Shown here: piece by piece, positions 2,606 to 47,767 of the stretch
Numbering within the stretch: position 1 is the stretch's first letter
Layout of the letters: every line of letters starts with the position of its first letter
DNA from: Chrysophaeum taylorii
Taxonomy: Eukaryota; Sar; Pelagophyceae; Pelagomonadales; Pelagomonadaceae
Assembly: GCA_029834535.1 (NCBI GenBank)
Contig: JAQMWT010000355.1
Coordinates: forward strand, 1-54,618
Direction of reading: 5' to 3'
DNA length: 54,618 bases
The notes under the pieces: generated by a model
What the model saw: the letters and a program-made list of their open reading frames with translations, nothing else
Databases searched by the model: none
What the model was told of the DNA's origin: nothing
Made by a program: the position numbers and the translations under genes

Positions 2606-3222
2606 GCTCGGTGCAGAAGGCGTCTCCTTCTGCCGATAAGAAGAAGAATTCTCGTCAAGAATCGCTCGGTAACGACGATTTCGACCGACGAACTGACGAG
2701 GAGGAAAAGAAATGCCGAGAAGTTACAGAAGGCGAGATTCGCCGAAGGTTTGAAAAGGTCCACTGGGTGCCGATCACGTATCGCAAGGTTGTGATGCTCT
2801 TTAGCGGCGCCGGAGGAAGTACTTTAGGACTGCAACGAGCGAACGAGTTGTGCGGGACGTCGTTTCGAGTCGTCCTTGCTCTTGACTCTTCAACAGCTGC
2901 CAACAAGGTTCATCAGAAGAATTTTCCGAAGATACCTGTGGTTCAGCACACGCTCTGCGGACGATATGACTCGACCCTCCGATTGATCAAGGCTTATTTG
3001 CCTGAAGCGGAATGGTCATCGTCGATGTGTATAGCGTCTCCACCCTGCGTTCATTCAGCACTCTGCAACTTGACATCCAGAGATGTTGGCAGGGGTGTTA
3101 CGGCCACTAACTGGACGATGAAGCTGTGCAAAATGGCTGGCTTCATGATGTGGCTGATTGAACAGGAGGCGTCCATTATTTCTTATATAGCGCGCTTACG
3201 TGTACGTCGACAATTTTCATGA
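2526..3222 (+). pseudogene. C5-cytosine DNA methyltransferase, N-terminal half (gypsy A)
   Basis: DNA (cytosine-5) methyltransferases move a methyl group from S-adenosylmethionine to cytosine through a covalent Cys-cytosine intermediate. This open frame shows motif I (VMLFSGAGGSTLGL, cofactor binding, about 2790-2835), motif II (ALDSS at about 2880 with a following KNFP), the catalytic motif IV (ASPPCVHSA, about 3035-3060) and a motif VI candidate (WLIEQE, about 3150-3170). It is the 5' part of the second ORF of the retrotransposon, ahead of RT. The frame begins after a TAA near 2525 and runs in the -1 register to the protease ORF. A frameshift near 3200 separates it from motifs VII-X. All N-terminal catalytic residues are kept in this copy. 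Confidence 0.88.
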
Positions 3223-3913
3223 TATCACGCCCACTCTGATGAGCTCTCGCGTGCGATTGTTGGTTTCCAGTCACCCACTGCACTTGCAAGAGGCTCCGAA
3301 GACATGTGTGAACATGCAACAAAAATTTGCTGCAGCTTTAGGTTATGCTCATGAACGCCACCTGCTCCAGCTGAATAATCTTGGCTCGTCCCGAGAAGCA
3401 ACAGATACGGCTTACACCGTTGCGCGAGTTCCTCTTCGTTTGGGACCGCATCGCTCGGACACTCAGCCTTTGACTCTCGAGATGACGGCCGAGTTGCTCA
3501 CGATGCCGGTGGACCATGATTGGGCTAGCTTGTCTAAGACAGATTCGTTCAAACATTTAGCGTCTGTCGTCCCTCCAGACACTCTTGCGATTTTAGCAGT
3601 CGATCTGCACAACTCCGTGACCAGAGGTTTCCGCCAAAGTGGCGAAGTCCTGCCGACCGCGTTGAGCCCGACAGATCGATCCTTTGAGCAGTATTTGCGA
3701 ATCTCCGACACCACCTTTCGTCACGTACAGATTCCGCTGTTAAATACGCGTACTCGTGTCGTTAAGTGGGTGTCAAAGATGATCTCCAGGATCCCACTAA
3801 ATGGGAACCGCCAGAAGTCCCCATGCTTCCGCTTCCAACAGATGCGCCGGGGACGGCTCATGCTTTTCTGCTGCCCCCCGACAATCAAAAGTGGACGTTC
3901 CGCCGGATCCTGA
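3200..3913 (+). pseudogene. C5-cytosine DNA methyltransferase, C-terminal half (gypsy A)
   Basis: Continuation of the methyltransferase in another frame. It contains motif VIII (MSSRVRLLVSS; the family pattern is PQxRxR), a short variable stretch of about 65 residues in the place of the target recognition domain, motif IX (PLTLEMTAELLTMPVDHDW, compare R-x-LT-x-x-E-x-A-x-L-x-x-FP) and motif X (HLASVVPPDTLAI, compare QIGNAVPP). The GN of motif X is replaced by AS. Downstream is a linker before RT that shifts frame again at about 3775. Confidence 0.85.
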
Positions 3914-5154
3914 ACCTGAACAGGAGCCGAAAGTAAGGAGCGAGCCGAATGTGCGCGTCAAAGGTGAAAAGATCAATAAGAGCCACCCTGAGGTGAGGTT
4001 CAAATACGAAGAAAAGTTCGATGTGCCATGGAAGGATGCGCCGCGCGATGCGGACGGTGTACCGTTACCGCAGACTCCCGAGCACGTCAAGGACAATGAT
4101 GCGATGAAAGTCGTAATTCCGACGAAGGAAGAAGTCGAAAGGTTGTTCGAGATCTGGGAATTCCCGACAACCCGCATCTGGATGATGATGCGAAGATGAT
4201 GTTGAGCCACTGCGTGCAATACGCGTGGGCTTTCTTTGATCCGATTATGAGACCCGTGGACTCGCCACCGGTTTCTCTACGATTTAAAGACGCAAACCCA
4301 CGACCGATCAAGATGACGCCTTATAGGTTGACGCCAGCAAAGCTCGAGTGTCTCAGAAAGCAGATCACTGAGTGGTGTCGCGATGGAGTCATCCGACCGG
4401 CGAACTCTCCGTGGGGATTCCCTGTACTGATGCTGCCTAAGAAGGGAGCAGAGGCCGGGACGTCGAATGCTTTTCGTGCTGCAGTTGACTTGCGTCAGCT
4501 CAATGATCAGCTGGTCAATGACAGTTGGCCGAATATTCGTCAAGATGATGCTTTGGCTTTTCTTGCCATGCGCCGTTGGCGGACGTGCATTGATATTCGA
4601 TGGGGTTATCATAACACGTTTGGACGCCGCTGCTCAGGTCGCTGTTACGATGGTTAGTCCACTTGGAGCCCATAGTTTCTTGCGCTTGCCTCTAGGGTAA
4701 AAACAGCAGGAGCTCTCTTTTGTAAGCAGATGGCTAGCGATTTGTCCACATGGATGTATAAGGACTTGGTCGCGTTTGTCGACGATATTATGATGGGATC
4801 GGATGAACTCCATCGACATTTACAAGTTTTGATTGAAGTGTTGTGCCATTTAGCACAGCGAGGATATAGTGGACGAACTTCGAAGTTCCACCTCAAGGAT
4901 GAAATCGAGTTTTTGGGACATATTTCGACTCCGGAAGGCTCGAAGCCGAATCCCAAGACGTTAAAAGCGTTGCAGCAGATGCCGATTCCCGGTACGTTGC
5001 CCAATACGTCCCCGAAGACCCAGATTCGATCTTTCATTGGCATGAGCAACTATTGCCGCCGATATGTGAAGAATTATTCGAAGATTGTGGAGCCGCTTAG
5101 GCGATTGTGTCTTGAAGGCGTTAAGTTTGAGTGGACGCCTGAGTGCCAAAGGCA
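3801..5154 (+). pseudogene. Reverse transcriptase (gypsy A)
   Basis: RNA-dependent DNA polymerase of the Ty3/gypsy type, broken into at least three frames. 4196-4657 carries the fingers and palm start (SPWGFPVLMLPKKG, AAVDLRQLNDQ); near 4610 an indel interrupts the palm after RTCIDIRWGYHN. 4730-5150 holds the active-site box as AFVDDIMMGSD (YVDD type, both Asp present), then FLGHISTPEG and the thumb and connection region (IRSFIGMSNYCRRYVKNYSK). The region before 4196 is an acidic linker. Inactive as it stands. Confidence 0.9.
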
Positions 5155-5640
5155 TGGGACACGATCATCGAAGCTTTGGTGGACTCTCGCGGAGTTTATC
5201 ATCCTGACTACGATCTTCCTTTTCAGATCCGCTCGGATGCTTCCAAGGATGGTCTGGGTGCGTATCTTTTTCAGCTCGTGGAAGTCAAGGACGAAACCGG
5301 CAAGGTGACACGAGAGGAACGAGTAATTGAGTATTGGAGCCGAGCTGTGCCGAAAGAGATGCGGAACTATGAGCCTCGCCGGCTATAGCTCTGCAGTTAT
5401 TCTTTCTCTTGCGCATTTCCGCTCTTATATCAAAGATCACGAGACGATCCTTGAAACGGAACATAGCAACTTGTCGTTTTTAACGGCGAAGCACTCGTCT
5501 GGGCAGTTGGCTCGATGGGCGATGCGGCTCGCCAATTTTGATCCTGAATTGGGTTACAAGCCAGGGAAGTCGCCGGGAATGAGCATCCCTGACTGTCTCT
5601 CGCAATCCTATAGATCATGTCATCGAGACGGACGAGTTTG
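5143..5640 (+). pseudogene. RNase H domain (gypsy A)
   Basis: RNase H removes the RNA strand during reverse transcription. Visible are IRSDASKDGLGAYLFQ (first catalytic Asp), YEPRRLELLAV-like sequence with the conserved Glu (damaged here), LETEHSNLSFL (TDH..L in copy B) and the distal ELGYKPGKSPGMSIPDCLS. A frameshift at about 5385 and small changes separate the parts. It lies between RT and integrase as usual for Ty3/gypsy. Confidence 0.85.
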
Positions 5641-5693
5641 GTGAACCCTTGAACCACGCGTACTAGTGTGCCAAGAACTTCCTCGCTCTGTCG

Positions 5694-6892
5694 ATGATGA
5701 AGGTACCTTTACCTGGGTGCCATGTCATTCTGTCGTTTTGTTTGGAGGAAGAGGAAGAAGACCTCGATGATCCGATGCAATTGGTCACGTCTCATGCTAC
5801 GAAACAACGTCAGAAGCAACGTCTGCAGACCCAGCCTAGTATTTTCCGTGATGCCGATGATTACCAAGAGTACATCGACAAGATTCCGGATAATTTGACT
5901 TTGGAAGAGATAGCCAAAGAGCAGATCACTGATGCTACTTGCGAGGACATTCGTTATCGCATGGCTCAGGGCCATTCTCTTCGTCGGTACGGAGCCAATT
6001 ATCGCTATCAAGTGGTGAAAGGAGTTCTCTACCGTGCCGCACCTGACTTGCACCCGATGATAGTCGCACCCCGAACTTTACGGACGCGCATCATCCGATT
6101 GTACCATGACACACCTCTCAATGGTGGTCACATGGGTCGTCAAAGTACAGTGCAGTCGATACTTGAACGTTTTGGTGGCCCCACATGTCTAATGAGGTGG
6201 GTGCTTACATTGCTGGTTGCATAGTGTGCAAGAAAGCTCGTACGCCTGAACCAAAGAGAGCAGGTCTGCTTCAGCAACCGGTGTATGATGGTGATTGCGT
6301 CGTCCTTTGTATGGATTTGTTTGGACCTTTGCCCAGTGCTGGTCCAGAGACATATCTGATCATTTCTTTTGATCCATTTTCTCGTTTCTTGATTCTTGAC
6401 GTACTACACCATAAGACTGCTGAGTCAATCCTCGAGTCTTTTGTCGCGAATATATTACTCAAAGGTTATCTACCTCAGAGGATTCGTACCGACAATGGGA
6501 AAGAGTTCGTCAACAAGTTGATGGAAGAGTTTTGTCATCTTTTCAATGTTCGGTATAGTACCACGATTCCGTATCATGCTCAGGCTAATCCTGCGGAAAG
6601 GGCCAACGGCTTTATCAAGGCTTTCCTCCGTGCGTGCCTTCAAAACCGCAAGATCGCGGAATTCGCGGAGTACATTGCTTTCTGTTACAATCGTAAATTT
6701 ATTCCAGGAACTCAGATTTCACCTTTCATGCTTCGTCTTAACCGGCAGCCTTTATTGCCAACCGATTACACGATCATGGATCTTGATGTCCGCCGCCTGC
6801 CGAAAACTCGCTCCGATGTTGTGGCAGAGACTCGCGAGAGGCTGAAGTTCTATACCGCTACGGTGAACGAAGCTCGCGAAGGCTCTTCGTAA
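5694..6892 (+). pseudogene. Integrase, zinc-binding and catalytic core (gypsy A)
   Basis: Integrase inserts the cDNA into the host genome. The HHCC zinc-binding module is seen as YHDTPLNGGHMGRQ ... CIVCKK. After one frameshift near 6185 an ORF of 235 residues carries the DDE core: CMDLFGPLP (first Asp, about 6310), IRTDNGKEFVNK (second Asp, about 6490) and NPAERANGFIKAF (Glu, about 6595). This is the only copy in the window with a complete core; copy B has lost it by deletion. Confidence 0.92.
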
Positions 6893-7621
6893 ACGTCTCG
6901 CTTACAATGCGGACCATGTCGATGTGGAGTATGAAGAAGGTTCACATGTTCTGCTCTACATCCCTTTCTTCAGAACAAGCTTCGACCGGAATGGCGCGGT
7001 CCATTCGTTATTTTGGAACGCTTGTCCCCGGTCACTTACAGGATTGAGTCTCTTGATTCTCCTCCTGAACGCCGTTGTGTTCATGTTAGTCAGATCACCC
7101 CTGTGATGGTTTCTCCAGTGGTCGATCGAGCTGTGCCCAAGCCCAGGAGACCTTCGGGATGATTACAAGCATGGTAAGTTCGTTATCTTTCGGATTCCGG
7201 ATAACAAACGGTCCGATTGGCGAAAGAAGATTTACGTCGCTGAAGTTTATGACCCTATGATTTTGTGAATGATCGGGTCGCTCTGCATTTTAATTATCTC
7301 GGTCCCCATGACAAGGTTTCTTATTACAAGCCTACCTCACGTCTCTCTACTCGCAAGCTTAAGCCGGAATACAAGGACGTGGGCGGTCGCATTTCCACCG
7401 ACAAGACCAAGGTCAACAACAGTACCACTCTTGTGTCACCGACTTCGCCCGCATGAGATCGATGTGTTGATTCCTAAGTTCACTTTGCGTGGTGGACGCG
7501 TTCCTGACCTGTCGTTGAACGTGCCTACAAGAAGATTCGTTCTCGAGATGCTCATTCAGCCAAGGCTCGTGCTTCTCGCCGGACTCGCTGAGGGCAGCTC
7601 GTGTTCTCACCAGGGGAGTCC
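6893..7621 (+). pseudogene. Integrase C-terminus with GPF module and C-terminal domain (gypsy A)
   Basis: Across two frames the sequence gives YEEGSHVLLYIPF, then RPEWRGPFVILERLSPVTYRI, which is the GPY/F module of gypsy integrases, at about 6975-7060. Beyond it lies an additional domain (KIYVAEVYDPYDFVNDRVALHF, then KLKPEYKD), also present in B (33042-32617). It ends in a basic tail (KIRSRDAHSAKARASRRTR) just before the 3' LTR. I cannot name the last domain; position suggests a chromatin- or DNA-binding role, which is inference. Confidence 0.75.
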
Positions 7622-7940
7622 TGTGGCGGCAACTCCTGACCGCTAAGGCTTACCCTCCCTTTCTCGAGGCTTGATACCCGTTCAACGGGACGCCTTTCCC
7701 TATCTTCCTAGTGACATCATTTCTCTTGTGAGAAGCATTCTTGCAGTATTCTTGTAGCATTCTTGCTATCATATACCATCTCTCCATCTTGTTGAGAGGC
7801 TTGGTGAGCGTGAGCAAGGTGTGTGGCGAGCATATCCGACCCCGAGTCCGTGTTTTCCTCGTTCAGTGAGGTCAAGGACGAGTCGGTGAGTACCCCCTTT
7901 GTCACCCGGGGGTCGGGAGTGGTTTTTCTGTGCCGCCATA
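7622..7940 (+). repeat. 3' LTR of gypsy A
   Basis: About 319 bp, starting TGTGGCGGCAACTCCTGACC and ending TGTGCCGCCATA, so the two ends carry short inverted repeats (TGGCGGCA/TGCCGCCA). Very similar sequences are found at 9148-9451, 32264-32586, 40408-40730 and, shortened, at 46116-46262. The next base on the right is gag of copy C on the opposite strand. Confidence 0.95.
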
Positions 7941-8720
7941 GTCGTCTGCCAAAGTATGCATCACCGCTGCCGAATCTAAATCAAATTGCCGTTGATCCCG
8001 GCCTTCGATGACGAGTTTGAAGTTGTCAGCTTTCAAACTGGAAGTGGGGCGACGAGATCGGCCCAAGTTGGCCTTCTCGGAGGCGTCCGCAAACGTATGC
8101 GATAATCCCCGTAACAATTTCGCACCTTCATCTTCGGTTTCCGCCCTACCCTCAGTCTCCGTATCGACTCGGGGCGGAGGTTCATCCCCCGTTTCAGTGC
8201 TCCTTTCCGGTTCAGGCCGCACCGCGGGTGTTTCCGGTTCGGGCCGACTCACGGGTCGTTCACGGCTGCTCTCACGACGCATACGTTCGGCTGCTAATTC
8301 GTCTCGCTCACGACGAAGTCGATCAACCTCCTCACGTAAGGTCCTCGTTATCTCGAGCTCTTGCTGCAACGCTTCATTCAGCATATTGAGCTCTTGTCGA
8401 GCCGCTTCTTCCTTAGCTTCAGCCCTGTCACGGGCGAATTGCTCGGCTAGTCGCTCGTTTTCGCGTCGTCTCCGCTCGAGGTCTTCACGAAGTCGACGTC
8501 GAGTTACGGGTCCGCGCTCAATCGTAGTGCGCTCGCCACGGTCCGGGGTCGTTGGACTCATCGGCGAAAACATATCTGTTTCTGGAGGCCCTTCAGGGGG
8601 CAATTCGGTCGCGTCGACTGCCTCGGCCTCTCGTAATTCACCTTCCTCGCGGCCGGTCTCAGTGGCGGCGGGAAGCACGGGAGGAGATCCTTCCTCACGC
8701 ACGTCTGCGTCTTCTTCCAT
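7941..8720 (-). pseudogene. gag, N-terminal two thirds (gypsy C)
   Basis: Reads from ATG at 8720 without a stop for about 260 residues: acidic N-terminus (GREEGELREAEAVDATE), a long charged coiled coil (RLREDLERRRRENERLAEQ and following heptads), an Arg/Glu/Pro linker, then the start of the capsid region (FKLVIEGRDQRQFDLDSA). It is cut at MHTLADDY by the LTR of A, so the last 12 or so residues of the open frame are LTR sequence. This is the longest uninterrupted view of the gag coiled coil in the window. Confidence 0.88.
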
Positions 8721-8768
8721 ACTGTATCAAGATGTCGATGAGGAATCTCGAACCAAGTCCGGATTCGA

Positions 8769-9147
8769 TCACTCGAAGCAATGCACGTCGCTATCAATGA
8801 CGCGATCTGTCGCTGTCAAAACAGCACTCACGGAGTTCTTGTCCGCCTGGCAATCCAAATGCCGGTGGGTAGCGATCCCACTCGCCAACAGCTTCCGCCG
8901 TTCAGCTATACCAAAATCAATCCCGGAGAAATGCGCTGCGATTTCCGACTCGCGCGCGTGTTCGTCGTCTATCGGGACGTACGAACGAAACAAAATCCGC
9001 GTATATTCTAAACGCAATTCGGTCCGCTGGAACTCCGCGTGCTTGATCAGGGCACGCGCGCAAATCCGGACCGCGTAATACAGTGCGTATGGGGCACTCG
9101 TTCGTTGGCGACCGATATAGTCGCACAATCTCGTATCCTCCACCACG
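8769..9147 (-). CDS. Conserved leader ORF between LTR and gag (gypsy C)
   Basis: An open frame of about 120 residues starts in or just after the LTR and ends shortly before gag. It contains YAVRICARALIKHAEFQRTE and FGIDFGIAERRKLLASG-like sequence. Related leaders follow the primer site in copies B and G, and the diverged family D keeps LLYTVGISVCVLIKRAE in the same place. No known domain is recognised. It may be a real small protein or a structured leader that happens to be open. Confidence 0.5.
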
Positions 9148-9451
9148 TATGGCGGCACAGAAAAACACTCCCGACCCCCGGGTGACAAAGGGGGTACTCA
9201 CCAACTTGCCCTAGACCTCACTGAACGAGGCAAACACGGACTCGGGGTCGGTTATGCTCGCCACACACCATGCTCACGCTCACCAAGCCTCTCAACTTGA
9301 GGATGGTGGGTTGGTTTATGATAGCAAGATACGCCTCTCTCGAGGGAGAGGTATGACGTCACTAGGAAAGTAAGAAAATGCGGCCCGTTGAACGGGTATC
9401 AAGCCCTGAGAAGGGGGGGGTAAGCCTTAGCGGTCAGGAGTTGCTGCCACA
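9148..9451 (-). repeat. 5' LTR of gypsy C
   Basis: About 304 bp with the family ends (plus-strand TATGGCGGCACAG ... TTGCTGCCACA). The primer-binding site lies just outside on the element side (plus strand about 9128-9146). Confidence 0.93.
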
Positions 9452-9890
9452 AGAACCGGCGCCAATGGAACGCAAGTCGAACAGCATCAAGTTCGGCCTG
9501 TACGAAACGGATTTCCTCTTGCTGGGCTGTGATCTTGTCCTCTTTTTCGTCCAGCGCGCAGTGCAGGCGGCTGAATGTCATGCGTAGCGTCTTCACCAGA
9601 GCTTCATGATCACGGAGCCGCTTTTGCAGCTCCACCAAACTCAACTCCGCGTCCATCTCGTTACCGTCGCGGTATTCGCCGTCATCTTCCTGACCACTCT
9701 CTCGACCCTTCTGGCGAGGCGGCGTGGCGTAGCTTCGGCCATGTTGGACACGTCGCTTGCTCCCGGGCGACGGTGTCGACGACGGGCTTCGTACTCGGCC
9801 GGTGTCGGTGCCCTGCACGAATGGGACTGCCGGGGCGGGCGCCGGGGGGGGCGCCAGAACCGGCAGAATCGCAAGCGCGCGCTGGCTCAC
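9452..9890 (-). pseudogene. Coiled-coil ORF truncated by gypsy C
   Basis: Unrecognised protein. From 9890 downward it has a Pro/Ala-rich start, a basic Ser/Pro stretch and then a strong coiled coil of about 65 residues (LVELQKRLRDHEALVKTLR ... EEIRFVQAELDAVRL). The final 15 residues of the open frame are LTR sequence of copy C, so the original C-terminus is lost. Upstream on the same strand (10308-9891) other frames are open but frameshifted. Part of that upstream sequence (10108-10257) recurs at 22398-22562 within retroposon H3, so this stretch may belong to a repeated element. Confidence 0.45.
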
Positions 9891-21778: not shown

Positions 21779-21783
21779 TCTAC

Positions 21784-32258: not shown

Positions 32259-32263
32259 CCTGT

Positions 32264-32586
32264 TATGGCGGCACAGAAAAACCACTCCCGACTCCCGGGT
32301 GACAAAGGGGGTACTCACCGACTCGTCCTAGACCTCACTGAACGAGGAAAACACGGACTCGGGGTCGGATATGCTCGCCACACACCTTGCTCACGCTCAC
32401 CAAGCCTCTCAACAAAATGGAGAGATGGTATATGATAGCAAGAATGCTACAATAATGCTGCAAGAATGCTTCTCACAAGAGAGAGGTATGATGTCAATAG
32501 GAAGGTAGGGAAAGGCGCCCCGTTAAACGGGTATTAAGCCTCGAGAAATGGAGGGTAAGCCTTAGCGGTCAGGAGTTGCCGCCGCA
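32264..32586 (-). repeat. 3' LTR of gypsy B
   Basis: 323 bp. In element orientation it begins TGCGGCGGCAAC (usually TGTGGCGGCAAC) and ends CTGTGCCGCCATA. Confidence 0.95.
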
Positions 32587-32616
32587 GGACACCCCTGGTG
32601 AGAACACGAGCTGCCC

Positions 32617-33042
32617 TCAGCGAGTCCGGCGAGAAGCACGAGCCTTGGCTGAATGAGCGTCTCGGGAACGAATCTTCTTGTAGACACGTTCAACGACAGG
32701 TTCAGGAACGCGTCCACCACGCAAAGTGAACTTAGGAATCAACACATCGATCTCATGTGGGGCGAAGTCGGTGACACAAGGAATGGTACTATTGTTGACC
32801 TTGGTCTTGTCGGTGAAACTGCGACCGTCCACGTCCTTGTATTCCGGCTTAAGCTTGCGAGTATAGAGATGTGAGGTAGGCTTGTAATAAGAGACCTTGT
32901 CATGGGGACCAAGATCAGCATAGAAATGCAGAGCGACTCGATCATTCACAATATTATAGGGCTCATAAACTTCAGCGAAGTAAATCTTCTTTCGCCATAA
33001 TTTTGATGATTGACTCAGCAGTCTTATGGTGTAGTACGTCAA
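32617..33042 (-). pseudogene. C-terminal domain of pol, gypsy B
   Basis: Continuous frame reading KIYFAEVYEPYNIVNDRVAL, DLGPHDKVSYYKPTSHLYTR, KLKPEYKDVDG, PKFTLRGGRVPEPVVERVYK and a basic tail, ending 31 bp before the 3' LTR. Same domain as at 7200-7610 in A but with fewer lesions. Unassigned; it follows the integrase GPF module in A. Confidence 0.7.
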
Positions 33043-33787
33043 GAATCAAGAAATGAGAAAATGGATCAAACAAGATGATCAGATATGTCTCGGGACCAGC
33101 ACTGGGCAAAGGTCCGAACAAATCCATACAAAGGACGGCGCAATCACCATCATACACCGGTTGCTGAAGCAGACCTGCTCTCTTTGGTTCAGGCGTACGA
33201 GCTTTCTTGCACACTATGCAACCAGCAATGTAAGCACCCACCTCATTAGACATGTGGGGCCACCAAAAACGTTCAAGTGTCGACTGCACTGTACTTTGAC
33301 GACCCATGTGACCACCAGTGAGAGGAGTGTCATGGTATAATCGGATGATGCGCGTCCGTAAAGTTCGGGGTGCGACTATCATCGGGTGCAAATCAGGTGC
33401 GGCACGGTAGAGAACTCCTTTCACCACTTGATAGCGATAATTGGCTCCGTACCGACGAAGAGAATGGCCCTGAGCCATGCGATAACGAATGTCCTCGCAT
33501 GTAGCATCAGTGATCTGCTCTTTGGCTATCTCTTCCAAAGTCAAATTATCCGGAATCTTGTCGATGTACTCTTGGTAATCATCGGCATCACGGAAAATAC
33601 TAGGCTGGGTCTGCAGAAGTTGCTTCTGACGTTGTTTCGTAGCATGAGACGTGACCAATTGCATCGGATCATCGAGGTCTTCTTCCTCTTCCTCCACAGG
33701 CAACTCAGTCGTAACAAACGACAGAATGACATGGCACCCAGGTAAAGGTACTCCTTCATCATCGACAGGGTAAGGAGTTCTTGGCAC
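32990..33787 (-). pseudogene. Integrase, core deleted (gypsy B)
   Basis: Zinc-binding module YHDTPLTGGHMGRQ ... AGCIVCKKART and the first core segment CMDLFGPLP are intact. After HHKTAESI the sequence jumps to IMAKEDLL, corresponding to about 7205 in A. About 770 bp are missing, including the second Asp, the Glu and the GPF module. Integration of B must therefore have happened before this deletion. Confidence 0.9.
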
Positions 33788-34377
33788 ACTAGATACGCGT
33801 GGTTCAAGGGTTCACCAAACTCGTCCGTCTCGATGACATGATCTATAGGATTGCGAGAGAGACAGTCAGGGATACTCATTCCCGGCGACTTCCCTGGTTT
33901 GTAACCCAATTCAGGATCAAAGTTGGCGAGCCGCATCGCCCATCGAGCCAACTGCCCAGACGAGTGCTTCGCCTTTCGTAAAAACGTCAAGTTGCGATGA
34001 TCCGTTTCAAGGATCGTCTTGTGACCTTCGATATAAGAGCGGAAATGCTCAAGAGAAAGAATAACTGCCAGTAGCTCTAGCCGGCGAGGCTCATAGTTCC
34101 GCATCTCTTTCGGCACAGCTCGGCTCCAATACTCAATTACTCGTTCCTCTCGTGTCACCTTGCCGGTTTCGTCCTTGACTTCCACGAGCTGAAAAAGATA
34201 CGCGCCCAGACCATCCTTGGAAGCATCCGAGCGGATCTGAAAAGGAAGATCGTAGTCAGGATGATAAACTCCGCGAGAGTCCACCAAAGCTTCGATGATC
34301 GTGTCCCATGCCTTTTGGCACTCAGGCGTCCACTCAAACTTAACGCCTTCAAGACACAATCGCCTAAGCGGCTCCAC
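33541..34377 (-). pseudogene. RNase H and integrase linker, gypsy B
   Basis: A 278-residue open frame: FEWTPECQKAWDTIIEAL, IRSDASKDGLGAYLFQ (first Asp), NYEPRRLELLAVILS (Glu), ILETDHRNLTFL (Asp), ELGYKPGKSPGMSIPDCLS (last His replaced region). This is the cleanest RNase H in the window. After about 33790 the correct frame changes to the integrase frame (33787-32972). Confidence 0.92.
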
Positions 34378-34760
34378 AATCTTCGAATAAATTCTTCACA
34401 TATCGGCGGCAATAGTTGCTCATGCCAATGAAAGATCGAATCTGGGTCTTCGGGGACGTATTGGGCAACGTACCGGGAATCGGCATCTGCTGCAACGCTT
34501 CTAACGTCTTGGGATTCGGCTTCAAGCCTTCCGGAGTCGAAATATGTCCCAAAACTCGATTTCATCCTTGAGGAGGTGGAACTTCGAAGTTCGTCCACTA
34601 TATCCTCGCTGTGCTAAATGGCACAACACTTCAATCAAAACTTGTAAATGTCGATGGAGTTCATCCGATCCCATCATAATATCGTCGACAAACGCGACCA
34701 AGTCCTTATACATCCAGGTGGACAAATCGCTAGCCATCTGCTTACAAAGAGAGCTCCTGC
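34364..34760 (-). pseudogene. Reverse transcriptase palm end and thumb, gypsy B
   Basis: After a one-base deletion in a T run near 34747 the frame continues as MASDLSTWMYKDLVAFVDDI with the intact active-site box FVDDIMMGS (about 34675-34700). A second indel near 34550 splits FHLLKDEIEF from GHISTPEGLKPNPK. The thumb IRSFIGMSNYCRRYVKN follows. Confidence 0.9.
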
Positions 34761-35830
34761 TGTTTTTACTCCTAGAGGCAAGCGCAAGAAACTATGGGCT
34801 CCAAGTGGACTAACCATCGTAACGGCGTCCTGAGCAGCGGCGTCCAAACGTAGGTTATGATAACCCCATCGAATATCAATGCACGTCCGCCAACGGCGCA
34901 TGGCAAGAAAAGCCAAAGCATCATCTTGACGAATATTCGGCCAACTGTCATTGACCAGCTGATCATTGAGCTGACGCAAGTCAACTGCAGCACGAAAAGC
35001 ATTCGACGTCCCGGCCTCTGCTCCCTTCTTAGGCAGCATCAGTACAGGGAATCCCCACGGAGAGTTCGCCGGTCGGATGACTCCATCGCGACACCACTCA
35101 GTGATCTGCTTTCTGAGACACTCGAGCTTTGCTGGCGTCAACCTATAAGGCGTCATCTTGATCGGTCGTGGGCTTGCGTCTTTAAATCGTAGAGAAACCG
35201 GTGGCGAGTCCACGGGCCTCATAATCGGATCAAAGAAAGCCCACGCGTATTGCACGCAGTGGCTCAACATCATCTTCGCATCATCATCCAGATGCGGGTT
35301 GTCGGGAATTCCCAGATCTCGAACAACCTTTTCGACTTCTTCCTTCGTCGGAATTACGACTTTCGTCGCATCGTTGTCCTTGGCGTGCTCGGGAGTCTGC
35401 GGTAACGGTACACCGTCCGCATCGCGCGGCGCATCCTTCCATGGCACATCGAACTTTTCTTCGTATTTGAACCTCACCTCAGGGTGGCTCTTATTGATCT
35501 TTTCACCTTTGACGCGCACATTCGGCTCGCTCCTTACTTTCGGCTCCTGTTCAGGTTCAGGATCCGGCGGAACGTCCACTTTTGATTGTCGGGGGGCAGC
35601 AGAAAAAGCACGAGCCGTCCCCGGCGCATCTGTTGGAAGCGGAAGCATAGGGACTTCTGGCGGTTCCCGTGTAGTGGGATCCTGGAGATCATCTTTTGAC
35701 ACCCACTTGACGACACGAGTACGCGTATTTAACAGCGGAATCTGTACGTGACGAATGGTGGTGTCGGAGATTCGCAAATACTGCTCAAAGGATCGATCTG
35801 TCGGGCTCGACGCGGTCGGCAGGACTTCGC
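34674..35830 (-). CDS. Linker and reverse transcriptase fingers/palm, gypsy B
   Basis: Downstream part of a long open frame (36632-34674) that also holds the methyltransferase. After motif X an acidic linker of about 130 residues follows (PPDPEPEQEPKV), then RT: SPPVSLRFKD, MTPYRLTPAKLECLRKQI, SPWGFPVLMLPKKG, FRAAVDLRQLNDQL, WRTCIDIRWGYHN (motif A Asp) and LGAHSFLRLPLGVKTAGALF (FlRMPFGL equivalent). That methyltransferase and RT share one uninterrupted frame shows a true fusion in pol. Confidence 0.93.
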
Positions 35831-36958
35831 CACTTTGGCGGAAACCTCTGGTCACGGAGTTGTGCAGATCGACTGCTAAAATCGCAAGAGTGTCTGGAGG
35901 GACGACAGACGCTAAATGTTTGAACGAATCTGTCTTAGACAAGCTAGCCCAATCATGGTCCACCGGCATCGTGAGCAACTCGGCCGTCATCTCGAGAGTC
36001 AAAGGCTGAGTGTCCGAGCGATGCGGTCCCAAGCGAAGAGGAGCTCGCGCAACGGTGTAAGCCGTATCTGTTGCTTCTCGGGACGAGCCAAGATTATTCA
36101 GCTGGAGCAGGTGGCGTTCATGAGCATAACCTAAAGCTGCAGCAATTTTTTGTTGCATGTTCACACATGTCTTCGGAGCCTCCTGCAAGTGCAGTGGGTG
36201 ACTGGAAACCAACAATCGCACGCGAGAGCTCATCAGAGTGGGCGTGATATCATGTAAATTGACGACGTACACGTAAGGGTGTAAGCGCGCTATATAAGAA
36301 ATGATGGACGCCTCCTGTTCAATCAGCCACATCATGAAGCCAGCCATTATGCACAGCTTCATCGTCCAGTTAGTGGCCGTAGCACCCCTGCCAACATCTC
36401 TGGATGTCAAGTTGCAGAGTGCTGAATGAACGCAGGGTGGAGACGCTATACACATCGACGATGACCATTCCGCTTCAGGCAAATAAGCCTTGATCAATCG
36501 GAGGGTCGAGTCATATCGTCCGCAGAGCGTGTGCTGAACCACAGGTATCTTCGGAAAATTCTTCTGATGAACCTTGTTGGCAGCTGTTGAAGAGTCAAGA
36601 GCAAGGACGACTCGAAACGACGTCCCGCACAACTCGTTCGCTCGTTGCAGTCCTAAAGTACTTCCTCAGGCGCCGCTAAAGAGCATCACAACCTTGCGAT
36701 ACGTGATCGGCACCCAGTGGACCTTTTCAAACCTTCGGCGAATCTCGCCTTCTGTAACTTCTCGGCATTTCTTTTCCTCCTCGTCAGTTCGTCGGTGGAA
36801 ATCGTCGTTACCGAGCGATTCTTGACGAGAATTCTTCTTATTATCGGCCGAAGGAGACGCCTTCTGCACTGAGCTCAAAGCATCGGTTCGGGAGCCGCAT
36901 CGCCTTGAGTCAGATGGCTTGCGACCGAAACAGTGAATGATAGGTTAGCCTTGTTAGA
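35830..36958 (-). pseudogene. C5-cytosine DNA methyltransferase domain, gypsy B
   Basis: Predicted DNA (cytosine-5) methyltransferase fused to the front of RT. Motifs in order on the minus strand: I, VMLFSGA then a TGA stop where copy A has GGA (Gly), about 36690-36665; II, ALDSS and KNFP; IV with catalytic Cys, ASPPCVHSAL, about 36450-36425; VI candidate WLIEQE, about 36330-36310; VIII, MSSRVRLLVSS, about 36235-36205; IX, PLTLEMTAELLTMPVDHDW, about 36005-35945; X, KHLASVVPPDTLAILAVDL, about 35925-35860. Motif I to X spans about 280 residues, compact for the family. Only the single nonsense change breaks the domain. The upstream acidic region belongs to the same frame and overlaps the protease ORF by about 80 bp. 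Confidence 0.92.
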
Positions 36959-38260
36959 TTCGGCTTCACCATCCTTCGTTAAATCGTCGACCGTCTCAGC
37001 ATTCAGCTCGTCATCAAAACGAACAATATCGCCCAAAGCAAGGACTTCACCTTGAGTAATCACGGTCGGCACATCCTGGGTAGAGGATATCGCCACTCGA
37101 GCTGCGAACTTATCATGATCCTCAGGAGAAGAACACATTCCATCGACTACCCCGAGTTGCTCGTACCCAGAAGACGTAGCAACGAAAACTTGCCCAGTTT
37201 CCATGGGCTCTGAAAGAGCGACTGGCACGCAGTAGGTGCGCCCAGGCTCGACCTTCATCGTGCGCGCAGCATAGGCTATCACTTCATAGGCATCGCTGTT
37301 CGAACTTTGAGAAGGCGTAACTGGAGGGACTCCCCAAGTCGTCGAAGCTCCCGCTCGTTTCGGCGGTGGACGCTGGAGGTCTTCAATCTTGCACAAGCGA
37401 GCGTATACTCGGTGCTCAACTGTGCACAGGCTCTTTTGCATCGCATGGTGCTGTTGCCCATAAACCTGAACTACCACGGGATTGCGCTCGTCATAAGTTG
37501 TTCTGAACGTCAAAATCGGAGAATCGACTCGTCGATCCTGCACCTTTAACTTCTTGCGCCCATAAGCGACTTGTGTGCGGAGAAACGCCATGCGACTTCG
37601 CGGGTAGTCCACTATGGCTCCCAACACCCTAATATCGCGCGCTCCCAGCAAAAATATATGATTAGTATCGGCCACAATAGCAACAACTGGAACGGCCACG
37701 TCGTCCGCAAGCGCAATCCGCAATGCGACCCATTTGTGGATAGTCGTCTTATCCAATCCTGACCCGTACAGGGTGCGCTCGACTGGAAGATCGCCCCGGT
37801 CAAGGATGATGCTATCCTTTGCCAGTTTTTCGACCATCCCACGACAAATATAGGAGACATCAGCCATTCCATCCACGCCTAAAGTCGTTGCGAACTTCGG
37901 CCCGTCTCGTCGTCCATAAATATGACCAACTATAAATGTAAGCGTACCAGGGTCTAGGCAGCCGATGGTGATGAGGCCTTGCTCGATCTTTTCCCCATCG
38001 CTCGGCGAAAGTGCAGTGTGATGACATCGTATCTCCGGTTTCGCATCGCCCGGCATCTGCATCGTCACCGCTGCCACATCTGGCGTTCCACATCTCGCCT
38101 CTGAATCTATATTGGCGCTCGCCGCTTCGGCTGCTTCCTCATTCCCCAGTTTCGCTGACAACAAATTCTGACGCTTCTCAATCGGAGGCACATATACTTC
38201 CTCCTTTATCTCTTCTAGCAATCGTCGTTTCTCGTCCATCAAATCGGACATTCCCGTCAA
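36875..38260 (-). CDS. Protease-like domain and linker, gypsy B
   Basis: A 461-residue uninterrupted frame. Contains VDGMADVSYICRGMV (in the place of D[ST]GA..fI), DRGDLPVERTLYGSG, an internal AVPVVAIVADTN, and HIFLLGARDIRVLGAIVDY, which resembles the second retropepsin signature (ilG.d.l.....iD). Then the linker EPGRTYCVPVALSEPMETGQ and VPTVITQGEVLALGDIV. The fold prediction is retropepsin-like, but Thr/Ser-Gly of the active site is missing, so activity is uncertain. The TGA stop at 36875-36877 overlaps the methyltransferase frame in the -1 register, exactly as in A. Confidence 0.75.
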   Translation of the reverse strand: MTGMSDLMDEKRRLLEEIKEEVYVPPIEKRQNLLSAKLGNEEAAEAASANIDSEARCGTPDVAAVTMQMPGDAKPEIRCHHTALSPSDGEKIEQGLITIGCLDPGTLTFIVGHIYGRRDGPKFATTLGVDGMADVSYICRGMVEKLAKDSIILDRGDLPVERTLYGSGLDKTTIHKWVALRIALADDVAVPVVAIVADTNHIFLLGARDIRVLGAIVDYPRSRMAFLRTQVAYGRKKLKVQDRRVDSPILTFRTTYDERNPVVVQVYGQQHHAMQKSLCTVEHRVYARLCKIEDLQRPPPKRAGASTTWGVPPVTPSQSSNSDAYEVIAYAARTMKVEPGRTYCVPVALSEPMETGQVFVATSSGYEQLGVVDGMCSSPEDHDKFAARVAISSTQDVPTVITQGEVLALGDIVRFDDELNAETVDDLTKDGEAESNKANLSFTVSVASHLTQGDAAPEPML

Positions 38261-38345
38261 AACTCCTCCTCCATCGGCGCCGCTGTGGTCTGCTCTGCTG
38301 CGACCAAAACTGTATCGGCTAAAACATCGGCTAAAACGGTCTCGG

Positions 38346-39695
38346 CTAAAACGGTCTCGGGGGCCCCGTAGGGAAAGAAGACGTCGTCCCCGACGTCAAC
38401 TCAAAAGGTCTAACGTCATCATCGTGAACTGCCCTGCAAGACATGCACATTGACGAATGGGGGGACACTGGAACCTGCGGCATGGGTTCGTCGGTCTCCG
38501 AATCTGAGTCTTCCCAGTAGTGCGGAGAATCCAAAGTAGCATCTGATATTGCTTCCACATACGATGTAGAAGGCCACCGAACGATCCGAGCGTTGGTGGT
38601 ATTTTGCTCCTGTTGCAAACGATGGCTGCTCGTCACAGCGACATCGGCAACATCATCGGAGACTCGGGCGGGGCGCGCCGTCGGGTAAAAGACAACTCCC
38701 GACGATGGCGGCGCGTCGCATAAAGATTGGAACGCGAAAGTTGCGCTCGAATGTCCCGAACTATCCTGATATCGACCTCCGTCATATTCGTCATCGTAAT
38801 GTCGATGACGTCGGCGCCGGCGCGAATTGCGACTAGAGCTCCGGTGACGGCGGGGACTCGGGCTGGTTTGAGGAGTATTGGCCTTTCGATCAGGGCTCTG
38901 GCTTCGATGTCGGCGCGACGATCGTCTAGAAGGTGATCGTCCGTCTCGCTGTCGTGTAGAAAACGACGTAGTATCCTTGATGCCTCTGACCTCGCTCACC
39001 ATGGTCGCCATTGTGGTTCCAATATCGATGAGGGCCGTTTGAATTTCATTAGAAGGCTCCGATCCGCGCGTGGCGTTCGCATGAGATGCATCATCACGCT
39101 TCGCCCAATCGGAACGCGATATGGGTTGCTTCTTCTGCTTACGAATACGCTTCCACATCGCACAGTAATAACGATCCGGATCGCGGTTGCAAACCACGCG
39201 ATTTCCGTGTTCATCTTCATCATGGGTGGTCCAGAAGAATCCGCAGTCCTTGCACGTCCTCTTGCCCCACAAAAAAGGATCTCGTAAGATCAGCGGATCC
39301 GTATTCCCAGACGGTTTATCCGCATCTTGCTTGGCTTGTTGATCGGAGGCCATAGCTCGACCTCCCCGCCCTCGCGGCGGTTTATTCGATTTCGGATTAG
39401 GAGGGCCTTGGTCCTTCTCCTCCTCCATCAACTTTCGCAAGTCGTTCTCGAGCCGCGTGATAAGCGCCACCATCGACTTAAAAGTCAAGTAACTATCAGG
39501 ATGTCCGCTCCTCATAGTCCGCACACGGGTCCTCAACTCCTTGGATGTCAACCCACTGATAAGCTGGTCGAGGATATTGACTTCATCCATCGTGCGGCTG
39601 GACACGGAACAAAACTCCAAAGCCTCCGATTGGAATCTGGTATAATACGCCTGGATGTGCCGCTCCCTCTTTCGCTTCAGCCCTTTCACGAGCAA
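38346..39695 (-). CDS. gag capsid end, Cys/His knuckle and basic linker, gypsy B
   Basis: 449-residue open frame: RHIQAYYTRFQSEALEFC, LDQLISGLTSKELRTRV and YLTFKSMVALITRLEND, the usual C-terminal capsid helices of retrotransposon gag; then a Gly/Arg stretch (RGRGGRAM), the Cys/His cluster CKDCGFFWTTHDEDEHGN..C..C, an Arg/Ser-rich region and an acidic tail ending at the G4C5 run (38359-38367). At this run the frame differs from the protease frame. The N-terminal half of gag is on 39975-39583 in another frame. Confidence 0.85.
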   Translation of the reverse strand: MLVKGLKRKRERHIQAYYTRFQSEALEFCSVSSRTMDEVNILDQLISGLTSKELRTRVRTMRSGHPDSYLTFKSMVALITRLENDLRKLMEEEKDQGPPNPKSNKPPRGRGGRAMASDQQAKQDADKPSGNTDPLILRDPFLWGKRTCKDCGFFWTTHDEDEHGNRVVCNRDPDRYYCAMWKRIRKQKKQPISRSDWAKRDDASHANATRGSEPSNEIQTALIDIGTTMATMVSEVRGIKDTTSFSTRQRDGRSPSRRSSRRHRSQSPDRKANTPQTSPSPRRHRSSSRNSRRRRRHRHYDDEYDGGRYQDSSGHSSATFAFQSLCDAPPSSGVVFYPTARPARVSDDVADVAVTSSHRLQQEQNTTNARIVRWPSTSYVEAISDATLDSPHYWEDSDSETDEPMPQVPVSPHSSMCMSCRAVHDDDVRPFELTSGTTSSFPTGPPRPF

Positions 39696-39975
39696 AACGC
39701 TCAGCTAATCGTTCATTTTCGCGACGTCTCCGCTCGAGGTCTTCACGAAGTCGACTTCGGGCTGCAGATCCGCGCTCAATCGTAACACGCTCGCCACGGT
39801 CCGGGGTCGTTGGACTCAACGGCGGAAAAATGGCAGCATCCAGAGGCACGTCAGGGGGCAAGTCAGCAACGTCGACTGCCTCGGCCTCTCTTAATTCACC
39901 TTCCTCGCGGCCTATCTCAGGGGCGGCGGGAATAACTGGAGGAGATTCTTCCTCGCGCACTGCGTTTATATCCAT
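39583..39975 (-). pseudogene. gag N-terminus, gypsy B
   Basis: ATG at 39975; acidic N-terminus and the first coiled-coil heptads (RLREDLERRRRENERLAER). After AKEGA the frame runs into capsid sequence read out of frame, because the coiled coil and early capsid present in copies C and G are deleted. Confidence 0.88.
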
Positions 39976-40387
39976 ACTGGATCAAAATATCGATCAAGAA
40001 TCTCGAAACACGTCCGGATCCGATCGCTCGAAGTAATGCACGTTGATTCCAACGACGCTATCTGTCGCTGTAAAAACAACACTCGCGGAATTCCAATCCG
40101 TTGGCAATTCAAAAATGCCCGAGGGTAGCGATCCCACTCGCCAAAAAGCTTCCACCGTTCAGCTATACCAATATCAATTCCCGGGAGAATGCGCTGCGAT
40201 TTCCAACTCGCACGCGTGTTCGTCGTCACTCGGAACGCACGAACACAAACAACGTTCGCGTATATTCTCAACGCAAACCGGTCCACTGGAACTCCGTGTG
40301 CTTGATCAGGGCACACGTACAAATCCGGACCACGTAATACAATACGTACGGCAGCACTCGCTCGTCGGCGACCGATGTAGTCGCACG
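39976..40387 (-). other. Leader region of gypsy B
   Basis: Corresponds to the leader ORF of C and G. Here one frame reads DYIGRRRASAAVRIVLRGPD and changes to IDIGIAERWKLFGEWDRYP further on, with stops near the end. Sequence conservation with C, G and partly D exceeds what I would expect of a free leader. Confidence 0.5.
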
Positions 40388-40405
40388 ATCTCGTGTACTC
40401 CACCA
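40388..40405 (-). other. Primer-binding site of gypsy B
   Basis: Minus-strand TGGTGGAGTACACGAGAT two bases after the LTR end. Identical to the site of G at 46267. Confidence 0.75.
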
Positions 40406-40407
40406 CG

Positions 40408-40730
40408 CACGGCGGCACAGAAAAACCACACCCGACCCACGGATGACAAAGGGGGTACTCACCGACTCGTCCTAGACCTCACTGAACGATGAAAACACGG
40501 ACTCGGGGTCGGATATGCTCGCCACACACCTTGCTCACGCTCACCAAGCCTCTCAACAAGATGGAGAGATGGTACATGATAGCAAGAATGCTACAAGAAT
40601 ACTGCAAGAATGCTTCTCACAAGAGAGAGGTATGATGTCACTAGGAAGGTAGGGAAAGGCGCCCCGTTGAACGGGTATCAAGCCTCGAGAAAGGGAGGGC
40701 AAGCCTTGGCGGTCAGGAGTTGCCGCCACA
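40408..40730 (-). repeat. 5' LTR of gypsy B
   Basis: 323 bp; plus-strand ends CACGGCGGCACAG and TTGCCGCCACA. Followed at 40731 by the TSD CCTGT. Confidence 0.95.
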
Positions 40731-40735
40731 CCTGT

Positions 40736-40975
40736 GTCTGGTCACTCAAACAATTGTCATTTAGCAAGGCCTTCAGTGAATCTGGTCACTCAAAAAAATG
40801 TCATTTGGTCATGGCTTGAAGGCCATGAAGGCCATGACCAAATGACTTTTTTTGAGTGACCAGGTGACATTTTCTTTTTGACAGGAACGAAAAATGTCAT
40901 TTGGTCACATAAAAATGTCATTAGGTCACCAAATAAATGTCATCTGGCCACAAAGAAAATGTCATTTGGTCACAC
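40736..40975 (+). repeat. TGTCATTTGGTCAC array with a palindrome
   Basis: Eight or more imperfect copies. GTCATTTGGTCATGGC and its reverse GCCATGACCAAATGAC face each other at about 40800-40845, so the array changes orientation and could fold into a hairpin. Confidence 0.88.
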
Positions 40976-46115: not shown

Positions 46116-46262
46116 TGTGGCGGCAACTCCTGACCGCTAAGGCTTACCCCCCCTCGATATCCGACCCCGCGTCCGTGTTTTCCTCGTTCAGTGAGGTCTA
46201 GGACGAGTCGGTGAGTACCCCCTTTATCACGCGGGGGTCGGGAAGGTTTTTCTGTGCCGCCA
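46116..46262 (+). repeat. 5' LTR of gypsy G, internally deleted
   Basis: 147 bp: the first about 33 bp and the last about 114 bp of the 320-bp LTR are joined (CTTACCCCCCC directly to TCGATATCCGACC). The primer site TGGTGGAGTACACGAGAT begins at 46267. Confidence 0.9.
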
Positions 46263-46634
46263 TACGTGGTGGAGTACACGAGATCGTGCGACTACATCGG
46301 TCGCCGACGAGCGAGTGCTGCCGTACGTGTTGTATTACGTGGTCCGGATTTGTACGTGCGCCCTGATCAAGCACACGGAGTTCCATTGGACCGGTTTGCG
46401 TTGAGAATATGCGCGAACGTTGTTTGTGTTCGTACGACCCGAGTGACGATGAACACGCGTGCGAGTTGGAAATCGCAGCGCATCTTCCCGGGAATTGATA
46501 TTGGTATAGCCGAACGGTGGAAGCTGTTTAGCGAGTGGGATCGCTACCCACGGGCATTTTTGAATTGCCAGCGGATTGGAATTCCGCGAGTGCTGTTTTT
46601 ACAGCGACAGATAGCGTTGTTGGAATCAACGTGA
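46254..46634 (+). CDS. Leader ORF of gypsy G
   Basis: 126-residue frame from the LTR end to just before gag: DYIGRRRASAAVRVVLRGPD, then IGIAERWKLFSEWDRYPRAF. A one-base shift relative to C switches frames in the first half. See the C leader for the comparison. Confidence 0.45.
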   Translation: MPPYVVEYTRSCDYIGRRRASAAVRVVLRGPDLYVRPDQAHGVPLDRFALRICANVVCVRTTRVTMNTRASWKSQRIFPGIDIGIAERWKLFSEWDRYPRAFLNCQRIGIPRVLFLQRQIALLEST

Positions 46635-46698
46635 ATTACTTCGAGTGATCGGATCCGGACGTGCTTCGAGATTCTCGATCGATATTTTGATATAGTAT

Positions 46699-47767
46699 GG
46701 AGATAAACGCAGACGTGCGTGAGGAAGAATCTCCTCCAGTTCTTCCCGCCGCCCCTGAGATAGGCCGCGAGGAAGGTGAATTAAGAGAGGCCGAGGCAGT
46801 CGACGTTGCTGACGTGCCCCGTGATGTGCCTCCGGACACTGCCATTTTTCGCCGTTGAGTCCAGCGACTCCGGACCGTGGCGAGCGTGTTACTATTGAGC
46901 GCGGGTCTGCAGCCCGAAGTCGACTTCGTGAAGACCTCGAGCGGAGACGTCGCGAAAATGAACGATTAGCTGAGCTTTTTGCTCGTGAAAGGGCTGAAGC
47001 GAAAGAGGAAGCGGCTCGACGAGAAGTTGATATGCTCAATGATGCATTACAGCAAGAGAATGAGACCTCGAAGACCCTACGTGAAGAGGTTGAACGATTT
47101 TGTCGTGAACGAGATGAATTGTTAGCCGAACGTGCGCGTCGGGAGAGTAGCCGCGAACGGCCCGTGAGTCGACTCGAACCGGAAACGCCCGTGAGGCCGC
47201 CCGAACCGGAAAGGAATACTGAAACGGGAAATGAACCTCCGCCCCGAGTCGATACGGAGACTGAGGGTAGGGCGGACGTTGAGAATGAAGGTACGAAAAT
47301 TTTACGGGAATTATCGCGGGGAATATCGCAGACGGTTGCGAACGCCTTCGAAAAGGGCAACTTGAGCCGATCCCGTCGACCCACTTCCAGTTTGAAGCCT
47401 GATAACTTCAAACTCGTCATCGACGGCCGAGACCAACGGCAATTCAATTTGGATTCGGCGGCGATGATGCATACTTTAGCAGATGACCATTACTCGGTCG
47501 AGAAATTACGTTACCCACTACCTGTGCATCTACGGGACACCGTTGCACCGATTATTGAGGAGCACTTGCAGAAATACGAGGAGCTCTGCGATGAGGTACC
47601 GCACGGTCCGTCGTTTTACTTGAAATTGGATACTGACGATGAAGAGCATGGAGCCTCGGTTCGTCGTATCCGTCGTCTTAACAATACGTATTGTGACAAG
47701 ATTTTGGGTTATTTGCGCCTGTGGCGGTTACTACAGCTTCATGTAGCGATAAGTGTATGGTCCAAAT
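46699..47767 (+). pseudogene. gag N-terminus, coiled coil and early capsid, gypsy G
   Basis: ATG 46699; acidic N-terminus, a stop at about 46858 caused by a frameshift, then a 300-residue frame (46855-47769) with the coiled coil (LREDLERRRRENERLAELFA ... EEVERFCRERDELLAERAR), the linker and the capsid start: FKLVIDGRDQRQFNLDSA, LPVHLRDTVAPIIEEHLQKY, GPSFYLKLDTDDEEHG. It supplies the capsid part missing from A and B. Truncated after ILGYLRLWRLLQ. Confidence 0.9.

Follow-up and report, generated by a model that had tools for sequence, protein, structure and literature searches.

Ty3/gypsy retrotransposons of the pelagophyte alga Chrysophaeum taylorii carry a divergent C5-cytosine methyltransferase homologue ahead of reverse transcriptase

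A Ty3/gypsy retrotransposon that appears to encode a C5-cytosine methyltransferase (MTase) ahead of its reverse transcriptase (RT) raises two questions, namely whether the additional domain truly belongs to the C5-MTases, and what such a domain would do for a mobile element. This arrangement was proposed in a preliminary description of a stretch of DNA from Chrysophaeum taylorii (54,618 nucleotides of contig JAQMWT010000355.1, referred to here as the window). The features on which the following discussion draws are collected in Table 1.

The MTase motif series proposed for positions 35830-36958 is present there and lies on the minus strand, within an element named copy B, whose two LTRs (32267-32583 and 40411-40727) share 95.3% identity over 317 bases. 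The proposal of a single frame leading from the MTase into RT stands in part. The 663-residue frame of copy B does run from motif I to the first RT blocks, but it starts within motif I, right after an in-frame TGA (FSGA, stop, GST), and it ends short of the FVDD box of RT, which is found in another frame. Copy A was said to have the same layout; all motifs do occur there in order, but those from I to VI fall in ORF 2536-3222, those from VIII to X in ORF 3191-3913, and RT in further frames. Both window copies are broken, B by the stop inside motif I and A by a frameshift that falls after motif VI and before motif VIII. Pfam searches of the gag-like and protease-like frames of copy B gave no match. 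Two further observations concern the surroundings of these copies. A direct repeat of about 740 bases (40829-41568 and 42015-42752, 89% identical) adjoins the 5' LTR of copy B, and positions 16560-21779 are taken up by a GC-rich element (67%) whose two ends bear short repeats. The latter has a weak RVT_2 match (25.9 bits, below the cut-off) and is not among the matches to the copia MTase described below.

Table 1. Positions of the features discussed (window coordinates, unless a locus from elsewhere in the genome is named)
Feature	Position	Strand	Basis
Copy B, Ty3/gypsy element with two LTRs	32261..40730, ends approximate	-	LTR pair, TG...CA ends by eye
Copy B 5' LTR	40411..40730	-	LTR pair comparison
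Copy B gag-like open frame	38346..39704	-	by eye
Copy B open frame, protease-like stretch GVDGMADVSYI at 37847-37879	36875..38395	-	by eye
Copy B MTase domain, motifs I to X, in-frame TGA in motif I	35880..36689	-	motif positions
Copy B motif I	36657-36689	-	
Copy B motif II	36585-36611	-	
Copy B motif IV (ASPPC)	36432-36449	-	
Copy B VI-like motif (IEQE)	36312-36329	-	
Copy B motif VIII (SSRVRL)	36201-36230	-	
Copy B motif IX	35964-36002	-	
Copy B motif X (ASVVPP)	35880-35915	-	
Copy B 663-aa open frame, MTase (from inside motif I) to X, then first RT blocks	34674..36665	-	
Copy B RT blocks	34962-34991 and 34854-34883	-	
Copy B RNase H part	33541..34395	-	PF17917, PF17919
Copy B integrase part, H2C2 zinc-binding	32972..33811	-	PF17921
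Copy B 3' LTR	32261..32583	-	LTR pair comparison; start by eye
Copy A, same family as copy B, cut by contig end at 1	1..7940	+	sequence similarity
Copy A MTase domain, motifs I-VI separated from VIII-X by a frameshift (two frames)	2791..3592	+	
Copy A motif I	2791-2823	+	
Copy A motif II	2869-2895	+	
Copy A motif IV	3031-3048	+	
Copy A motif VI	3151-3168	+	
Copy A motif VIII	3242-3271	+	
Copy A motif IX	3470-3508	+	
Copy A motif X	3557-3592	+	
Copy A LTR-like 3' end	about 7622-7940	+	
Another family copy, 5'-part and LTR fragment	8401..9457	-	83% to copy B
Further fragment of window gypsy family	46157..47490	+	
DNMT5-like host gene, MTase + SNF2 in one 2086-aa frame	L009 6968-10000, L010 2-4225	+	Pfam domains
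Ty1/copia element with C5-MTase ahead of integrase and RT	L012 3597-9452	+	MTase + RVT_2 in one frame
Ty1/copia element with C5-MTase ahead of integrase and RT	L013 704-6307	-	MTase + RVT_2 in one frame

The complete order of the Pol domains is seen in a relative from elsewhere in the genome, the locus L038. Its unbroken frame of 2839 residues contains the MTase from residue 1219, RVT_1 at 1773-1937, RNase H at 2007-2144, H2C2 and rve at 2328-2497, and an integrase C-terminal domain, and its best PDB match is the Ty3 Gag-Pol (E 2.4e-68). The host element is a Ty3/gypsy LTR retrotransposon, as indicated by the RT-RNase H-integrase order and Ty3-type RT of L038 together with the LTR pair of copy B. 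The preliminary assignment to a Ty3/gypsy element with a C5-MTase ahead of RT is supported by this Pol order, by the Ty3 match and by the PF00145 matches presented below. Past the integrase C-terminal domain, the last 160 residues of L038 have no Pfam match and look, by eye only, like a small beta-rich reader domain.

The family is abundant in the genome, which was searched as 70.8 Mb in 697 contigs. A dinoflagellate or Perkinsus host was rejected for this genome, in which a spliced-leader pattern has 0 matches. The pattern C[IV]ASPPCV is encoded at 307 places (control 0) and FSGAGGST at 275 places (control 2), counts which include decayed copies and which come from patterns that do not fit the sequence of the second family introduced below. 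A search with the copy B frame, in which 67 of 1699 candidates were scored, found at least 72 matches, and 37 of those listed have no stops in the matched stretch. Among the 20 best-scoring loci, a selection by score rather than a random sample and with copy B included, motif IV is present in 20, motif I in 16, and all six motifs stand in one open frame in 13.

Between two subfamilies, RT shows a nonsynonymous difference (pN) of 0.040 and the MTase one of 0.122, each over 12 pairs; the linker that follows the MTase reaches 0.123 (also 12 pairs), and the upstream part 0.244 (5 pairs). Since pN in the MTase is 0.122 and the synonymous difference (pS), which is near saturation, is 0.716 (12 pairs), the domain is under purifying selection, though no more than the linker and less than RT. 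Like the MTases of the retrotransposons in PMC5890265, this one is encoded within a retrotransposon, occurs in many copies and is kept by selection. As read from sequence, it sits in Pol between the protease-like region and RT, and the lineage has apparently carried it for enough time to diverge into at least two families.

Relatives lacking the domain were sought through RNase H, which yielded six loci, with the upstream DNA of three being examined. The first of the three (L081/L083) has a broken MTase upstream, and the second (L079/L084) retains motif I, after which its sequence jumps to RT (L079 89-877, L084 2929-3054). In the third (L077/L082), about 270 bases separate the upstream similarity from RT, and no MTase match was found there. 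Since some copies lack the domain wholly or largely, it may not be needed in every element, or may be provided in trans. A separate observation is that L080 (89-877) resembles L079, so that the MTase is cut after motif I and followed by RT at no fewer than two places, which may represent a mobilised deletion form.

The relationship of the domain to C5-MTases was assessed at several levels. The fragment of copy A that spans motifs I-VI reaches 22.1 bits against PF00145 (E 1.2e-4, cut-off 22), and the copy B frame alone gives no match in the Pfam search. For each of the 13 unbroken window-family domains collected across the genome, PF00145 is the sole Pfam family matched (best E 1.8e-6), the matches covering motifs I-II only; at the level of whole long frames, three of six reach the cut-off (L019, L020 and L029), and L028, L036 and L038 remain below it. 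A profile of the 13 domains scores 81.1 against a DNMT2 profile (96 of the 120 proteins found, the rest dropped by length) and 78.7 against a Dcm profile (the protein P0121 and 22 of 23 loci), with the maxima of 60 column shuffles each being 24.2 and 24.1. Motifs I-II alone account for scores of 68.0 (DNMT2) and 65.4 (Dcm), and for this reason the remaining motifs were compared separately. Motifs VIII-X alone score 28.7 against Dcm, in register with Dcm VIII-X, motifs IV-X score 29.0, and motifs IV-VI score 22.6 against DNMT2 (best shuffle 21.1), none of these values being reached in 150 shuffles. Motifs VIII-X do not match the DNMT2 profile (15.0).

Moreover, a second gypsy family with a related domain is present in the genome, its MTase being 35-38% identical to that of the window family. 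A genome search with this MTase gave 151 matches; among the 150 listed, 133 are 49-100% identical and 17 are 41-45% identical, and the two of these 17 that were examined (L087 and L088) belong to the window family. Among the matches listed, open frames reach 2129 residues. The domains of the four loci examined (L085, L086, L089 and L090) all match PF00145 at 37.0-38.3 bits (cut-off 22, E about 1e-9), each in two stretches, of which the better is IX-X in two domains and I-IV in the other two. The positions covered include 257-321 of PF00145, which supports the presence of motifs VIII, IX and X in their usual order. A match in two stretches settles the homology. In the preliminary description, the lack of a significant match to this profile had been named in advance as grounds for giving up the claim; significant matches were found, most clearly in the second family.

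When both families are combined in one profile, the whole domain scores 88.2 against Dcm and 81.5 against DNMT2 (0/100 shuffles each). Motifs VIII-X of this profile score 33.4 against Dcm (0/100) and 18.1 against DNMT2 (10/100 shuffles as good), motifs IV-VI score 25.2 against DNMT2 (0/100) and 19.2 against Dcm (1/100), and motifs IV-X score 33.7 against Dcm (0/100) and 25.4 against DNMT2 (2/100). PDB matches of the MTase profiles are weak (E 0.11 or worse); the best ones of the window-family profile are DNMT2 chains, all five of the two-family profile are MTases, and searches with both profiles (E up to 10) returned no DNMT3 chains. Motif IV of Dnmt3 reads SPCN. The MTase-domain structure predicted from three aligned rows has a mean pLDDT of 30.2, a value too low for a Rossmann-like SAM-binding fold to be read from the model.

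At the level of profile comparison, homology to C5-MTases holds for motifs I-II, IV and VIII-X, and the Pol domain is almost certainly a C5-MTase homologue. The idea that the motif series is a chance likeness in a Pol linker could appeal to the restriction of the window family's Pfam matches to motifs I-II and to the weakness of the PDB matches. It is scarcely credible, as matches occur at both ends of the domain and in order, no shuffle was as good in the sets of 60, 150 and 100, and the two-family PDB matches contain nothing other than MTases; the PF00145 matches of the second family are taken as refuting it.

Across the 12 rows representing both families, GAGG, SPPC, both glutamates of EQE, the RxR of motif VIII and the VPP of motif X are invariant. 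Among these, GAGG, the cysteine of SPPC, the glutamate of motif VI and the RxR are the residues to which catalysis would be ascribed. Several departures from the textbook motifs had been pointed out in the preliminary description, and they are real and common to both gypsy families: the asparagine of motif X is replaced by serine, the NV of motif VI is replaced, giving EQE for ENV (a motif aligned by spacing, not by profile), and the stretch between VIII and IX is short. The second family has LEQE at VI and GS at motif X (GS-VPP, which is nearer to the textbook form), and the window family has IEQ and AS. Because departures of this type are kept across both families, they represent family traits rather than decay.

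The origin of the domain was approached through a tree built on motifs I-IV (31 rows, 156 columns, Dnmt1 and Dnmt3 not included). In it the gypsy MTase groups with neither DNMT2 nor Dcm, and branches are long. Membership of the gypsy MTase in DNMT2 was considered and rejected, as the 12 DNMT2 rows stand on one side of a branch with support 95/93 and the gypsy rows lie outside it. Dcm-type bacterial MTases (HaeIII-like) and DNMT2 are the best profile matches, but the gypsy domain differs from both in EQE for ENV, in S for N in motif X and in the shorter VIII-IX stretch. Outside C. taylorii, the MTase region of one long window-family frame has no homologues at E 1e-3 among 6930 candidates, and a window-family profile search of 8000 candidates gave a single weak Dcm-type match (P0121, E 0.021). 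No window-family MTase was confirmed in viral contigs.

The gypsy elements are not the only carriers of MTases in this genome. A PF00145 search, in which 123 of 474 candidates were scored, found 57 matches, 55 of which overlap a Ty1/copia family. The two others are a DNMT2-like gene, whose protein is 100% identical to C. taylorii CTAYLR_008533, and a gene combining an MTase with SNF2, which is DNMT5-like; DNMT5a is reported from pelagophytes in the accessible text of PMC9998398. DNMT1 and DNMT3 are likely, though not proven, to be absent, given that 123 of 474 candidates were scored and that the published assembly (71 Mbp, 702 contigs) has a BUSCO value of 81.5% in the available text of PMC10366177. 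Like the gypsy MTase, the copia-borne one is a PF00145 domain in a retrotransposon Pol with long open frames. It differs in its element, Ty1/copia (RVT_2), and in its boxes, which are LPCQ and ENV in place of SPPC and EQE, and its profile reaches 52.6 when compared with Dcm and 36.9 with DNMT2 (0/60 shuffles each). A single capture behind the gypsy and copia MTases was rejected, as the two have no detectable profile similarity (score 20.0).

A footprint of methylation was sought in CpG content and in C/T differences between copies. The CpG observed/expected ratio is 1.17 in copy B, 1.18 in copy A and 1.26 in L038, so these three gypsy stretches have no CpG depletion; it is 1.22-1.33 in four host-gene stretches (L009, L011, L039 and L041), and two stretches with the copia MTase have 1.04 and 1.01. 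Synonymous third-position C/T differences in three sets are 0.125, 0.043 and 0.071 at CpG and 0.155, 0.124 and 0.111 at CpT; those at CpG are lower than at CpT in all three sets, and in two of the sets they exceed those at CpA and CpC. Such values give no support to heavy and lasting methylation of CpG in gypsy copies once integrated, and transient methylation, other sequence contexts or good repair are compatible with them. The earlier suggestion that the element methylates its own cDNA or new insertions finds no measured support here, with CpG depletion lacking and synonymous CpG differences below those at CpT. As a side observation, C/T differences between copies are commonest at C before T (L018-L037 and copy A), in both subfamilies and also at synonymous sites; leucine codons may explain part of the all-site result, not the synonymous-site result.

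What the domain would do for the element can be outlined as follows. The MTase would be made as part of Pol, would enter the particle together with RT, and would there methylate cytosines of the element's own reverse-transcribed DNA using host SAM; after integration, host DNMT5 could keep the marks. We assign a probability of roughly 0.4 to this chain as a whole. As regards its parts, unbroken gypsy copies are probably catalytically competent, to judge from their conserved residues, and the main substrate of an active enzyme would probably be the cDNA of the element itself or its new insertion. The available text of PMC5890265 reports that two DIRS-borne MTases methylate CG in yeast, with inconclusive results for the Gypsy and LINE enzymes, and the former result counts in favour of the chain. 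Counted against it are the lack of CpG depletion, synonymous CpG differences below those at CpT, a conservation no better than that of the linker and lower than that of RT, the replaced residues of motifs VI and X, the relatives that lack the domain wholly or largely, the three of six whole frames below the PF00145 cut-off, and the weak PDB matches. The same lack of a CpG footprint and linker-like conservation, together with EQE for ENV, the serine in motif X and the short VIII-IX stretch, would suit a derived and catalytically dead MTase retained for its binding of DNA, RNA or SAM, with roles such as holding the cDNA or steering integration. However, a dead enzyme would not need the SPPC cysteine, the motif VI glutamates and the motif VIII RxR, and these are invariant in 12/12 rows from families only 35-38% identical, which makes loss of catalysis a rather unlikely explanation, if one to be taken seriously.

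An active enzyme might also have another substrate. A retrotransposon particle contains RNA, and the domain could be a DNMT2-like RNA m5C methyltransferase that acts on the element RNA or the tRNA primer; SPPC is the motif IV form of the DNMT2 proteins examined, the top PDB matches of the window-family profile are DNMT2 chains, and motifs IV-VI fit DNMT2 better than Dcm. This is quite unlikely, considering that motifs VIII-X fit Dcm and not DNMT2 and that the gypsy rows fall outside the DNMT2 branch. Action in trans, directed mainly at other DNA such as that of rival elements, viruses or host genes, would be expected to allow the coexistence of domain-less copies, and an antiviral role of retrotransposon MTases is proposed in the accessible text of PMC6338049; nevertheless, the linkage of the MTase to RT in one frame fits better with action inside the particle, and a main target of this kind appears improbable. 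Methylation of the element's own reverse-transcribed DNA is the reading that we prefer.

MTase capture by retrotransposons has been described in dinoflagellates and in a charophyte. According to the available text of PMC5890265, MTases occur in Symbiodinium LINE and DIRS elements and in a Klebsormidium Gypsy, and Symbiodinium copia elements are without them; PMC12344493, as excerpted, mentions members of DNMT3 carried by Copia LTR elements and by DIRS elements. The closest parallel is KnitGypsy-Dnmt3 of Klebsormidium nitens, likewise an LTR Gypsy whose Pol frame includes a C5-MTase, with many copies and purifying selection on the domain (PMC5890265). In contrast to the present domain, it is a Dnmt3 from a charophyte; the stramenopile domain has SPPC and GAGG and matches no DNMT3 PDB chain, features that would set the two apart on the basis of the published description, as far as it is accessible. 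SymbioDIRS-Dnmt3 and SymbioLINE-Dnmt of Symbiodinium are also retrotransposon-borne and of high copy number, and the latter is likewise an orphan lineage, but they belong to other retrotransposon classes; SymbioDIRS enzymes are active in yeast, whereas the gypsy MTase is known from sequence, and SymbioLINE is CpG-poor, unlike the C. taylorii gypsy elements (available text of PMC5890265).

In the open-licence literature, no description of pelagophyte retrotransposons with an MTase was found, and in the main text of the C. taylorii genome paper (PMC10366177) the strings 'retrotranspos' and 'transposable' are absent. The novelty of the pelagophyte elements is limited by the accessible text of PMC6338049, which mentions DAM- and DCM-encoding Ty3/Gypsy and DIRS retrotransposons in stramenopiles, among others, the kind per group being unstated there. 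PMC10366177, in its available text, describes native and amplified nanopore libraries and RNA-seq for the C. taylorii strain NIES-1699, and the question may therefore be partly answerable from existing data. Where that paper lists its data, it gives Illumina, RNA (RNA-seq run SRR22085759) and PacBio runs and no nanopore run.

If a copia family and two gypsy families carry seemingly unrelated MTases in a stramenopile, capture of such enzymes would be a recurrent strategy rather than two oddities. Because a DNMT2-like and a DNMT5-like gene are the only ones besides copia among the 57 PF00145 matches in this assembly, the alga offers a natural test of how methylation begins where a host de novo enzyme may be lacking. 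It is conceivable, though unlikely, that C. taylorii lacks its own DNMT1 and DNMT3 and that the two gypsy families and the copia family, whose enzyme was acquired separately, are the only source of new 5-methylcytosine, which host DNMT5 then maintains. If so, de novo methylation in this organism would be a parasite-supplied function.
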